Of a DNA stretch of 64,000 bases, positions 3,621 to 8,090 are shown in pieces; the stretch's first letter is position 1, and the number at the start of each line of letters is the position of its first letter. The notes under the pieces are model-generated. The model was not told the origin of the DNA. It was given only the letters and a program-made list of their open reading frames with translations, and ran no database searches. The DNA lies in contig NZ_KK214997.1 in assembly GCF_000633935.1 (NCBI RefSeq), forward strand, positions 261,872 to 325,871. Reading direction: 5' to 3'. Origin of the DNA: Ectothiorhodospira haloalkaliphila ATCC 51935. GTDB taxonomy: Bacteria; Pseudomonadota; Gammaproteobacteria; Ectothiorhodospirales; Ectothiorhodospiraceae. The position numbers were made by a program, and so were the translations under genes.

Positions 3621-4232
3621 TCATGCCCCCCGATGACCATCGCTAGGAGGAGGACGTCGACCGGCCGGCCGGAATGCCTTGCACACCTTGGGGTCGGCTT
3701 CCAGATAAGGGCCACCGATCAGATCGATGCAGTAGGGCACGGCAGCAAAAATGCCATACACGGGCGGTGAGGCATCGGGAAGACCTGCCAGGGTTTCGGC
3801 AATGGCCTTGGGCTGCCCCGGGAGATTGATGATCAAGGCGCTGCCCCTGACGACCCCCACCTGGCGCGAGAGAATGGCGGTGGGGACGAAGGTCAGGCTG
3901 ATCTGGCGCATCTGCTCACCAAAACCCGGCATGACCCGGTCGGCTATCGCCAGAGTGGCCTCCGGCGTGACATCGCGCGGCGCTGGACCGGTGCCTCCGG
4001 TGGTCAGCACCAGATGGCACTCGGCCTCGTCGACCAGCTCCATCAGGGTTTCGCTGATGATCTTCTCATCGTCGGGAATCAGACGCGTCTCCCAGATCAA
4101 GGGGTTGTGCAATGCACGTCCCAGCCAGTCCTGCAGGGCAGGAATCCCCTTATCCTCGTATACACCGCTGGAGGCCCGGTCGCTGACGGAAACAACGCCG
4201 ATTCTTACCGTTTCATAGGTTGAACTAGTCAC
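3621..4232 (-). CDS. mog: Molybdopterin adenylyltransferase Mog
   Basis: Adenylylates molybdopterin before molybdate insertion in molybdenum cofactor synthesis. Visible are the N-terminal [11 protein letters not shown] strand and the [17 protein letters not shown] substrate-binding loop, plus [11 protein letters not shown], all typical of Mog/MoaB. About 203 residues, slightly longer than usual because of a basic tail. Starts at GTG 4232 or TTG 4238, inside the stop region of cysNC, so the two are translationally coupled. A molybdopterin oxidoreductase lies 6 kb away on the same strand. Confidence 0.9.
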
Positions 4233-6135
4233 AGGCAATCAACTCTCGCTCACGCAGTAGCGCAATGACAGCATCGGCGGCCTCCTCGGTACTCAGCTCT
4301 GCCGCCCGAAGATGCAATTCCGGGCTCTCCGGGACCTCATAGGCAGAGTCGATGCCGGTGAAATTCTTGAGCTCACCGCGACGGGCTTTCTTGTAAAGCC
4401 CTTTCGGGTCCCGCTCCTCGGCCACATCCAGCGGCGTATCCACGAAGATCTCGATGAACTCACCCTCCTCCATCAGATCCCGCGCCATCTGGCGCTCACT
4501 GCGAAATGGCGAAATGAAGGCCGTCAGCACGATCAGACCGGCATCCGCCATCAGCCTGGCCACTTCCGCCACCCGACGGATGTTCTCCACTCGGTCGGCA
4601 TCGGTAAAGCCCAGGTCCCGATTCAGCCCATGGCGAACGTTGTCGCCATCCAGCAGGTAAGTATGCTGGCCGGCAGCATGCAGCTTCTTCTCCACCAGGT
4701 TGGCGATGGTCGACTTGCCCGCGCCTGAAAGGCCGGTAAACCACAACACGGCCGGCTTCTGCCCCTTGGCGATCCCCCGAGCCTGCTTGTCGATATCCAC
4801 ATGCTGCATGTGAATGTTCTGGCTGCGGCGCAGGGCAAAATGCAGCATGCCAGCGCCCACGGTGTTGTTGGTCATCCGGTCGATCAGGATATAGCCACCA
4901 GTGTCAGCGTTCTCCTTGTAGGGGTCGAAGGCCACCGGCCTGCTCAGGCTCAGGGTACACACCCCAATACCGTTCAAATCAAGCTGCTTGGCCGCGGTAT
5001 GCTCCAGCGTGTTGACGTTCACCTGATACTTCACCTGGCTCACCGTCGCCGACACCGTCTGCGTACCCAGCTTCAGCAAATAGGGTCGCCCCGGCAGCAA
5101 GGGCTGATCGTGCATCCACACCAGGGTGGTCTCGAATTGATCGGCCGTCTCGGCCGGCGCGTCCACACCGGAGATCACGTCACCGCGGGAGATATCGATC
5201 TCGTCCTCCAGCAGCAACGTCACCGACTGCCCGGCAATGGCCTGCTCCAGGTCACCCTCGTAGGTGTAGATCCGCTTGATGCGGCTGGTCTTGCCGGAGG
5301 GTTGCACACGGATGGCATCCCCCGGTTTCACGCTGCCGCTGGAAATCATCCCGGTGAACCCCCGAAAATCCAGATTCGGTCGGTTCACCCACTGCACCGG
5401 CATGCGCAAGGGGGTGTGCTGCAGGCGTTCCTCGTCCACCTCCACGGTTTCCAGATAGCCCATCAGGGTGGGCCCGTGATACCAGGGCATGTGATGACCA
5501 TGCTCGATCACGTTATCGCCCTTGAGCGCCGATAGAGGGATGAAGGTCATGTCCTCCAGACCCAGTTGCTTGGCGAAGGCGCGGTATTCGTCCACGATCT
5601 CGTCAAAGCGTGCCTTCGAGTAGTCCACCAGGTCCATCTTGTTGATGGCCACCACCAGGTGCCGAATACCAATCAGCGCCATCAGGAAGCTGTGGCGGCG
5701 GGTCTGGGTGAGGATGCCATGGCGGGCATCCACCATCAGGATGGCGGCATCGGCAGTGGAAGCCCCGGTCACCATGTTGCGGGTGTACTGCTCATGCCCG
5801 GGCGTATCGGCAACGATGAACTTGCGCTTGTCGGTGGAAAAGAAGCGGTAGGCCACATCGATGGTGATGCCCTGCTCCCGCTCGGCGGCCAGGCCATCCA
5901 CCAGCAGGGCAAAGTCCATCTCTTCCCCCTGGGTGCCATACTTCTTGGAGTCCGCCTTGATGGCGGCCAGCTGATCCTCGAACAACAGCTTGGATTCGAA
6001 CAGCAGTCGCCCGATCAAGGTGCTCTTGCCGTCGTCCACGCTGCCGCAGGTGATGAAGCGCAGCAGCCCCTTGTGCTCGTGGGCCTTCAGATAGCCTTCG
6101 ATATCGCCGGCGATCATGTCGGATGCGTGTGCCAT
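4225..6135 (-). CDS. cysNC: Sulfate adenylyltransferase subunit 1 / adenylylsulfate kinase fusion
   Basis: A bifunctional 636-residue enzyme. The GTPase subunit of ATP sulfurylase drives APS formation, and the fused C-terminal APS kinase makes PAPS. The N-terminal EF-Tu-like GTPase has [15 protein letters not shown] (P-loop), ADTPGHEQY and NKMDLVDY. The APS kinase begins near residue 455 with [15 protein letters not shown]. The start ATG shares one base with the cysD stop (TGATG), indicating coupling. Assimilatory sulfate activation is the likely role. The fusion is common in proteobacteria. Confidence 0.97.
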
Positions 6136-7037
6136 CAGAAGTACCCCTCCTGCTTTTTCTTTTCCATCGAGGCGGCGCTGTCGTGGTCGATGACGCGGCC
6201 CTGGCGTTCAGATGTCCTGGTGAGAAGCATTTCCTGGATGATGGCCGGCAGGGTGTCGGCCTGCGATTCAATGGCCCCCGTGAGCGGGTAGCAGCCCAGG
6301 GTACGGAACCGCACCTTGCGCATCATCGGCACCTCGCCGGGTTTAAGCGGCATGCGATCATCATCCACCATGATCAGCGCGCCGTCGCGCTCCACCACCG
6401 GGCGCTCGGCGGCGTAGTAAAGCGGCACGATGGGAATGTCCTGGAGGTAGATGTACTGCCAGATATCCAGTTCGGTCCAGTTGGAGAGGGGAAACACGCG
6501 GATCGACTCCCCCTTGTGCTTGCGGGTGTTGTAGAGTTTCCAGAGCTCCGGGCGCTGGTTCTTCGGGTCCCAGCGGTGCTGGGCAGTGCGGAAGGAGAAC
6601 ACCCGCTCCTTGGCGCGGGACTTTTCCTCATCCCGGCGCGCCCCACCAAAGGCCGCATCGAAGCCATACTGGTTCAGGGCCTGCTTGAGGCCCTCGGTCT
6701 TCATCACATCGGTGTGGATGGCCGAGCCATGGGTGAAGGGGTTGATATCCTTCTCCACCCCTTCCGGGTTGATGTGCACCAGCAGGTCCATGCCCATCTC
6801 CCGGGCCATGTTGTCCCGAAACGTGTACATGGCGCGAAACTTCCAGCGCGTGTCCACGTGCAGCAGCGGAAAGGGGGGCGGTGCCGGGGCAAAGGCCTTG
6901 CGTGCCAGGTGCAGCATCACTGCGCTGTCCTTGCCCACCGAGTAGAGCATCACGGGGTTCTCGGTCTCGGCGACCACCTCGCGCATGATATGGATGCTCT
7001 CGGCTTCCAGCTTTTGTAGATGGGTGAGTGCTGTCAT
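6135..7037 (-). CDS. cysD: Sulfate adenylyltransferase subunit 2
   Basis: Catalytic subunit of ATP sulfurylase, joining sulfate and ATP to APS. It belongs to the PP-loop (PAPS reductase-like) family: [18 protein letters not shown] is the pyrophosphate-binding loop, and [18 protein letters not shown] follows. 300 residues from ATG 7037, the family length. The frame is open 29 codons further upstream, but that stretch overlaps the preceding gene and is not conserved in kind. The upstream IS630-like gene ends 14 bases before the start, so both are probably on one transcript. Confidence 0.97.
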
Positions 7038-7051
7038 GGCATTGGCCTGTC

Positions 7052-7852
7052 TCAAAAGGTCGATCCGGTCCCGTGACCGGGGGGGACATTGATCAGATAG
7101 AAATCCGGATGTGCCTCCAGCCACCGGCGAATTTCGGGGCTGGCCTGGAAATACGCGCCTTGGAACACCAGCGCTGTCGGCCTGTCAGGCAGCAAGTCGT
7201 GCAAGCGCTGGAAGAGCGCCATGTACTCACCCGCCGCCGGCGGCGCCCACAGGCAACGGGTGTGAAGCACCCCCCGCTTGCCGTGCAGATAGAGCTGATA
7301 ACGGGGCCAAACGGAGGCCGGCTCAGACCGCGTCCCGGTCACCCTCACGCCCCCCTGCCAGACGCCGCCGCCGGCCTTGCGCACCGCCTCCAGCACCGGC
7401 TGTACTTGCTGGCGATACCAACGGCCAGCGCTGCTGCGTTGCCGCGCCAGGGCTGTCAGTGCCAGTGGCTCGGGCTTGAGGTCACGGGCCTCCAGCCAGT
7501 GGTCGATGGCGCGAGCCGAGACCGGGTGCCCCACCTCGCTCAAGGCATCGGCGAGCCCACGACTGCTCCAGGCCGGCTCGCCGGAATCGGGGGTCATGGT
7601 GAGCCTCGCGCACAGCACCTGTTGAGCGGCGACATCGAGTGTGCCCCCCTGCCCCGTCTTGCGCCCCCGTGGGCGCACAGGCACCGCCGTCCACCCCCCT
7701 TCCCGGAAGGCCTTCCAGGCTGCGGACACGGTGGGTGCAGAAAGCCCGGCCCGGGCGGCGGTTTGGGCAACGGTGTGGCCATCCAGGCGCAGCCGCACGG
7801 CTTCCAGGCGGCGCTCATTCAGCACTTCGGGCGATAAATGTTTAGTGGACAA
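7052..7852 (-). CDS. IS630-like transposase-derived protein lacking the DDE residues; probable DNA-binding regulator
   Basis: A 266-residue protein. Residues 10-60 form a helix-turn-helix ([20 protein letters not shown]), followed by a winged-helix-like segment ([18 protein letters not shown]) and a domain that follows the IS630 core. In that core the usual 'LDNAxxH' is [18 protein letters not shown], the first Asp position is VWQGGVRV, and the protein ends at [10 protein letters not shown] before the final Glu. The catalytic triad is therefore absent. No terminal repeats surround it. It sits 14 bases before cysD and begins at TTG 7852 below an AT-rich leader. A regulatory role in sulfate activation is inference. 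Confidence 0.72.
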
Positions 7853-7950
7853 TAAACGATTAAATCTTTGTTTTATAAAAAGTTAAAAATAAAACGAGAG
7901 GCATTATCCAACCTGATCAAGCTACATCATAAAAGCACTATCACAATCTC
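7853..7950 (-). promoter_or_regulatory. AT-rich promoter region of the cysD operon
   Basis: A conspicuous run of A/T (about 7855-7895) in otherwise GC-rich DNA, directly upstream of the IS630-like gene that heads the cysDNC unit. No exact -35/-10 pair stands out. It is named as a promoter region from position and composition only. Confidence 0.35.
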
Positions 7951-7967
7951 ACAAGCCCACCGCAATA

Positions 7968-7990
7968 CCACCTCCCGGCACAGGAGGTGG
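7968..7990 (+). promoter_or_regulatory. Hairpin hiding a Shine-Dalgarno-like sequence in the leader of the diguanylate cyclase gene
   Basis: Perfect 8-bp arms CCACCTCC (7968-7975) and GGAGGTGG (7983-7990) with a 7-base loop. The right arm contains GGAGG, six bases before an ATG at 7994 that opens a 12-codon frame ending at 8032, ahead of the gene starting at 8091. It could be a leader peptide with a masked ribosome site, or simply a terminator-like stem. Confidence 0.35.
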
Positions 7991-8090
7991 CATATGACAG
8001 AGAGGCTGTGCACTGGCCGCCGGCTCGGTTAGTCTATCGAACAGTTGCGCAGTACTCCCTCGCGAGTCCCAACAAAAGGCATACCTGAAC

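Follow-up and report, generated by a model that had tools for sequence, protein, structure and literature searches.

The window, a stretch of 64,000 nucleotides from Ectothiorhodospira haloalkaliphila ATCC 51935, contains a sulfate activation operon on the minus strand headed by a transposase-derived gene, here named tnpR (7052..7852; 266 aa, TTG start). As a previous sequence-only reading had pointed out, the tnpR frame ends 14 nt ahead of the ATG at 7037 of cysD (6135..7037, minus strand), which encodes the small subunit of ATP sulfurylase and is followed by cysNC (4225..6135, minus strand), encoding the large subunit fused to APS kinase. An AT-rich leader (7853..7900, minus strand) runs from the promoter to the TTG start, and the divergent neighbour of the operon is a GGDEF gene. 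The nearest named match to the tnpR protein is from E. marina (90% identity), and the source genome has one copy of it (one strong match, the next at E 0.016). Directly 3′ of cysNC, on the same strand, lies a MogA/MoaB-like gene (3621-4238), named by eye from its translation.

Transposase ancestry and fold of the tnpR protein

The NCBIfam IS630 model NF033545 matched residues 14-135 of the tnpR protein but scored 47.6 bits, below its cut-off of 100; the protein is thus IS630-derived, yet not scored as a transposase. When a profile of 42 sequences was aligned with four IS630 transposases by hhalign, the homology to IS630/Tc1-mariner transposases extended over residues 3-258 (E 7.8e-20), which confirms the IS630-like character read from the window, and a profile of the fused relatives described below gave E 7.3e-28. 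The 42 sequences (alignment A1) comprise the window protein and 41 relatives; L048 (contig end), L050 (frameshift), and L007 (remnant) were dropped, as were L001, L003, L005, and L006, which appear to duplicate the window or named loci.

The catalytic residues are missing from the whole alignment. The column of the first catalytic Asp is occupied by Gly in 42/42 sequences and that of the second by His (33), Arg (7), or Gln (2), so that neither Asp is retained in any sequence. The column of the catalytic Glu is a gap in 30 sequences, and in the other 12, one of which has Glu, it holds scattered residues from the protein end; the C-terminal Glu block as such is missing from the family, and it is linker or end letters that fall in its column. 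In five reference IS630 proteins both Asp residues are present in all and the Glu in four. The fused forms (27 aligned) have Asp at the first catalytic position in one case and at the second in none. The loss of the DDE residues reported from the sequence alone is accordingly a feature of the family, and profile-profile alignment did not restore the active site. Element ends, whose absence that reading had likewise noted, were not found: 25 of the 27 inverted repeats detected were inspected and none brackets 7052-7852, although very short or diverged ends could escape such a scan. An active transposase is excluded by the missing triad together with the lack of detected ends, and the tnpR protein, judged by its residues, should be unable to cut DNA. 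Relative to the IS630 family (Tc1/mariner superfamily; NF033545), tnpR shows near full-length homology, both helix-turn-helix subdomains, and the RNase-H-like fold, but differs in that no catalytic D/D/E, third-acid block, or terminal repeats were found, and in being a single copy at a fixed genomic position.

The N-terminal half of the protein begins with a helix-turn-helix, HTH1 (residues 8-54; 7691..7831, minus strand), supported by Pfam HTH_28 and the AlphaFold helices (residues 8-23, 28-35, and 39-52) and, by dN, the best conserved part. HTH_28 scored 36.2 bits against a cut-off of 25, in line with the good helix-turn-helix noted before. Between the two DNA-binding subdomains lies an RPRGR stretch (residues 60-64; 7661..7675, minus strand) with R62, G63, and R64 invariant, which we take to recall the GRPR-type AT hook of Tc1/mariner transposases. 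It is followed by a second, paired-like helix-turn-helix subdomain (residues about 74-122; 7487..7633, minus strand), identified from AlphaFold and structure matches, and by an RNase-H-like domain without catalytic residues (residues about 160-256; 7085..7375, minus strand), which stops before the third acidic block. The AlphaFold model (mean pLDDT 88.8) accordingly shows two helical DNA-binding subdomains and then an RNase-H-like sheet. No match to a solved structure was found by sequence for the tnpR protein. By structure, the paired domains of Pax5 and Pax6 and the DNA-binding domains of Tc3 and SETMAR align over residues 1-124. The best Foldseek match was Mos1 transposase (E 5.6e-6), but with a TM-score of only 0.27, the Foldseek TM-scores being low; the best VIA matches were Pax5 (Z 8.3) and Pax6 (Z 8.1), over residues 1-123 or 1-175 at an rmsd of about 9 A, followed by integrase cores (Z about 6) and the SETMAR DNA-binding domain (Z 5.6). 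Since middling VIA Z values are common, these matches are support rather than proof. Based on the HTH_28 score and the high-confidence fold, the DNA-binding module is predicted to be intact.

Linkage to cysD and retention of tnpR

A scan of named genomes gave 41 tnpR loci, from Halomonadaceae, Ectothiorhodospira, and Thiorhodospira. In 40 of them cysD lies downstream on the same strand, and the remaining locus (L048) stops at a contig edge; the adjoining CysD counterparts are 90-98% identical. Family f171, which represents Halomonadaceae by the CysD tree, has tnpR in 18 of 161 genomes, with one family member per matching genome and cysD following in 18/18, in one case (G554) after a gap of about 630 nt. 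In the class sample, six of 369 genomes (source genome included) match at E<=1e-12, all six beside or in frame with cysD, and the genomes with tnpR also have CysD; a profile search of this sample added only an IS630 transposase, in G067. Thirteen of 398 genomes match in the phylum sample, four of which (G000, G408, G430, and G443) were counted as tnpR family, two of them belonging to families f1 and f171. The distribution is thus patchy, both within f171 and in the class sample. Among the 42 aligned sequences the distance from the tnpR stop to the cysD start ranges from -4 to 304 nt, with a 4-nt overlap in six, and the start codon is TTG in 30 and ATG in 12. The sequence-only reading had named the position next to cysD in other genomes as the point to check; relatives counted as tnpR family precede cysD wherever the contig reaches it, and random insertion is excluded by the counts in the named loci and in f171.

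The G067 match and the second match of G007 were discarded as IS630 transposases, whether intact or broken, and the matches of the nine other phylum-sample genomes and the second match of G443 as IS630-type proteins outside the tnpR family. Among the phylum-sample loci, L192, L194, L195, L197, L198, and L201 are IS630-type with a recognisable active site; L193, L196, L199, L200, L202, and L203 are closer to IS630 proteins than to the window protein, several having stops or decayed sites. No cysD was found near the IS630-type loci L192-L203. Four plasmid records have a weaker N-terminal match to the tnpR protein, and the one inspected is not beside cysD. The N-terminal part of tnpR shares about 40-46% identity with the IS630 genes L192 (G945) and L193 (G866, broken) and with stretches of Cupriavidus plasmids in which no gene is listed; the stretch inspected (L204 3001-3375) lies near copK. 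These genes and stretches possibly represent a sister lineage of the progenitor element.

The dN/dS of the whole tnpR protein is 0.08-0.42 in the 40 lowest-dS pairs, which share sequences and are not independent, and this indicates that tnpR is being maintained under purifying selection. Of three parts of the protein, HTH1 has the lowest dN in 38 of these pairs; by dN/dS the middle part falls below HTH1 in several. A length of about 250 residues is preserved down to about 50% identity. Broken copies also occur: L050 is frameshifted, G548 has two in-frame TGA codons, and G004 has a 52-aa remnant, with cysD present and the promoter block and most of tnpR gone. In the second cysD operon of G007 (L093), whose cysD is 98% identical to that of the window, tnpR has been lost near-exactly, leaving the promoter block and the first codons. 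With the catalytic residues gone, purifying selection, and a fixed locus beside cysD, the proposal that retention after catalytic loss reflects domestication has held up, and on this comparative evidence tnpR is well supported as a domesticated transposase.

In the CysD tree, the tnpR-linked sequences of Ectothiorhodospiraceae nest among those of Halomonadaceae (support of the enclosing clade 98/92). The CysD of the window is represented in this tree by that of E. marina (L010, 97% identical); the members include L066 (tnpR-linked), L007 (remnant), and L103 (fused). The nesting suggests operon transfer, and the tree makes horizontal transfer of the tnpR-linked operon between halophiles likely. 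A second CysD type of the same genus, without tnpR, shares 88-90% identity with the CysD of the window. A moved operon could have carried tnpR along as a decaying transposase remnant, as the broken copies L050, G548, and G004 might also suggest. However, this explanation, already disfavoured, is scarcely tenable given the purifying selection, the preserved length, and the lack of detected element ends, and the lineage of family f145 also retains the module in frame with CysD.

The promoter block and the proposed role of tnpR

A conserved promoter block is located upstream of tnpR (7925..7955, minus strand), with a -35 hexamer TTGTGA (7949-7954), a conserved spacer of 17 nt, and a -10 hexamer TATGAT (7926-7931), and a consensus promoter scan of the window found the same site. 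The arrangement TTG...TATGAT with the 17-nt spacer occurs in 43/43 tnpR loci, some 70-110 nt ahead of the start codon. Conservation of the spacer roughly equals that of the -35 hexamer and is exceeded by that of the -10 hexamer, and the flanks are hardly conserved; kinship of the sequences alone inflates these values, and the contrast is solely with the poorly conserved flanks. Allowing up to three mismatches, we searched 23 genomes, 22 with tnpR and G004 with only the remnant, leaving out G548 with its in-frame stops. The block was present in 22/22 genomes with tnpR, as a single match in the source genome, and absent from G004; a reversed control gave no matches. Beyond the operon site there was one exact copy, before the second cysD operon of G007, and one weak site with three mismatches each in G013 and G472. 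Of 32 loci with cysD but no separate intact tnpR, including two duplicates and three that show the divergent fusions of G048 and G106 (see below), only the second operon of G007 had a site with 0 mismatches, the next best having five. The block was not found in nine fused or f158 loci tested. That the G007 operon kept the block and lost tnpR indicates that the promoter need not depend on tnpR in cis. As the divergent neighbour in the window is the GGDEF gene and not the permease of other loci, the block seems to belong to the tnpR-cysD operon. The permease, of SLC13 type by eye from the translation, is divergent from the operon at L051, L093, L095-L097, and L160, and also occurs near cysD without tnpR in family f158.

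Inverted-repeat scores upstream of fused or f158 genes exceeded those of all 20 shuffles in 10 of the 31 regions examined, the fused group having AT-rich inverted motifs of its own; upstream of tnpR this was the case in three of the 20 regions scored (of 43). No clean operator palindrome was found in these 31 and 20 regions, and a candidate inverted repeat that flanks the promoter (GATTCTAC / GTCGAATC) was weak, with no counterpart seen in the window. Between the promoter block, which it closely precedes, and the GGDEF gene, the window has an 11-nt inverted repeat with a 7-nt loop at 7965-7993 (ATACCACCTCC / GGAGGTGGCAT).

We consider it reasonably probable that tnpR, as a domesticated transposase, regulates cysDNC autogenously and is dedicated to this operon. 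The protein keeps the bipartite, paired-like DNA-binding module and the RNase-H-like fold, the latter probably as a surface for dimerisation or contact. Since tnpR is the first gene of the operon, the conserved block at the promoter of its own operon is the most likely binding site of its protein, which would repress or tune tnpR-cysD-cysNC, with sulfate activation possibly sensed through contact with CysD. DNA binding, the block as its site, the direction of regulation, and the contact with CysD are what we infer from the sequence comparisons. An autogenous regulator is the simplest account of a first gene with a TTG start in 30 of 42 sequences, a putatively intact DNA-binding module, a dedicated block, and a dead catalytic fold.

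The sequence-only reading had left a choice between a regulator and a nucleoid factor. The bipartite DNA-binding fold and the RGR stretch would fit AT-rich DNA, as expected of a nucleoid-type or broadly acting DNA-binding factor that is in the operon by chance. Such a factor is nevertheless very improbable: f171 genomes with a match have one family member, beside cysD; the class-sample carriers also have CysD; only four of the 398 phylum-sample genomes carry tnpR; and the block is unrepeated except at the second operon of G007 and the sites in G013 and G472. A regulator is favoured over a nucleoid factor because the conserved cis block is the promoter of the operon and recurs at few other sites; the first half of the proposal is thus retained, as a predicted function, and the second is disfavoured.

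The block might instead be the site of another regulator, with the tnpR protein acting otherwise on DNA or on CysD. The enteric cysteine regulon is run by CysB, and the survival of the block in the G007 operon without tnpR would agree with such an arrangement. However, a regulon-wide regulator should have more sites than the one extra cysD operon and two 3-mismatch sites found in 23 genomes, and G004, the sole genome of the 23 without an intact tnpR, is also without the block. We therefore regard another regulator as unlikely and autogenous regulation by tnpR as the better candidate.

Fusions with CysD

In the window tnpR and cysD are two genes without a fused frame. In family f145, where 42/48 genomes match, a single open frame holds both the helix-turn-helix part and the CysD core in 41/42, the contig of G600 ending before CysD; in G587 the shared frame is open and the contig ends inside CysD. 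G302 and G397, the f145 genomes in the class sample, have no CysD at E<=1e-90 besides the fusion. IS630 or helix-turn-helix models and CysD models match the same chain, and by hhalign the free proteins are homologous to the fused ones (E 6e-45). In the CysD tree the f145 fusions make up a clade of their own (99/97). An AlphaFold model of one fusion (mean pLDDT 74.4) has the N-terminal elements of the tnpR protein, predicted with high confidence, and then CysD after a 58-residue linker (251-308) of low confidence. In G302 and G604 (f145; L133 (=L054) and L205), HTH1 alone is in frame with CysD, the open frames being 432 and 415 aa long; the fused N-terminal alignment A3 leaves out L128 and L133. 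Family f158 has matches in 4/27 genomes, with frames open into CysD and a start codon at the usual CysD position. In two further genomes, G048 and G106 (one each, from families f3 and f61), CysD carries at its N-terminus a divergent domain some 190-200 aa long (L144 967-1572, minus strand, and L145 1007-1567, plus strand); of the fused profile, it matches only the RNase-H-like part (E 9.6e-7, probability 91).

The shared frame in f145 suggests that contact with CysD matters and that CysD may be the sensor. In f145 the module fused to the N-terminus of CysD would make DNA-binding module and enzyme one predicted polypeptide. A tentative, wider reading is that recruitment of a transposase module made ATP sulfurylase a regulator of its own genes, the module being in one lineage a separate partner encoded by the same operon and in another fused to CysD, where the enzyme at the entry to sulfate assimilation would read sulfate activation and act on its own promoter; where an internal CysD start is kept, free and DNA-binding forms might then come from one gene. 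The tnpR protein could also be a structural or allosteric partner of CysD-CysN, an assembly factor or activity modulator in which DNA binding is a leftover. Physical contact is suggested by the f145 frame and by the neighbouring position of the gene in other lineages; selection has preserved the RNase-H-like domain, and two class-sample CysD fusions have only this part recognisable. We nonetheless consider a purely structural or allosteric partner rather unlikely, as HTH1 is the best conserved part, G302 and G604 keep HTH1 alone on CysD with the rest missing, and a dedicated conserved promoter block goes with the free gene.

To our knowledge, none of TldR, the Ner-like SfsB, Pax, or the trigger enzymes is a DDE transposase tied to ATP sulfurylase, and no transposase-derived cysD regulator or HTH-CysD fusion was found, by title or start of the abstract, among the top-ranked hits in the open-licence PMC literature. 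The Pax paired-domain transcription factors are derived from Tc1-like transposases, and the paired-type bipartite DNA-binding half of Pax and SETMAR gives the best VIA matches to the tnpR protein (rmsd about 9 A); these proteins are, however, eukaryotic, whereas tnpR keeps a dead catalytic fold and is linked to a single metabolic enzyme. Trigger enzymes, PutA among them, are enzymes with a DNA-binding domain of their own. The f145 proteins resemble them in having an enzyme and a predicted DNA-binding domain in one open frame, but the window has two genes, the enzyme is ATP sulfurylase, and DNA binding is here a prediction. TldR proteins are derived from TnpB nucleases. They are described as RNA-guided transcription factors (PMC13418256), and like TldR, tnpR would be a transposon protein turned bacterial transcription regulator. 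They differ in that TldR is RNA-guided and controls flagellin, whereas tnpR is a DDE transposase with protein helix-turn-helices, next to or on CysD. SfsB is a Mu Ner-like regulator, a mobile-element protein recruited by the host (PMC8987985), as tnpR would be; on that account Ner was already a regulator in the phage, unlike tnpR, a transposase that lost catalysis. If the proposed role is true, tnpR would be the equivalent in bacteria of those animal transcription factors that descend from transposases, with the adjacent and fused states of recruitment both visible and tied to one core metabolic enzyme. It poses the testable question of whether a DDE transposase became an operon-specific regulator with CysD as sensor. 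For annotators it is a warning, as genes and fusions of this kind might be labelled as fragments of IS630 or as plain CysD.

The start codons of the fused genes were compared at 29 loci. In five there is no ATG or GTG in the 40 codons ahead of the CysD core (TTG not counted), and these look like obligate fusions; in 10 an ATG lies 4-5 codons ahead of the core; and the other 14 have other starts, mostly 17-38 codons upstream, one with GTG at 5. Chance open frames as the source of the fusions are ruled out by the 41/42 shared frames in one family and the five loci without a near ATG or GTG, and are also countered by the transposase or helix-turn-helix models and CysD models found on one chain. 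Judged by these starts, obligate fusions and possible dual products may both exist in f145. At L118, L124, L131, L136, and L137 the fused frames retain an ATG where CysD usually starts, with an AGGA stretch ahead of it, and these loci possibly give dual products, the fused protein and free CysD.
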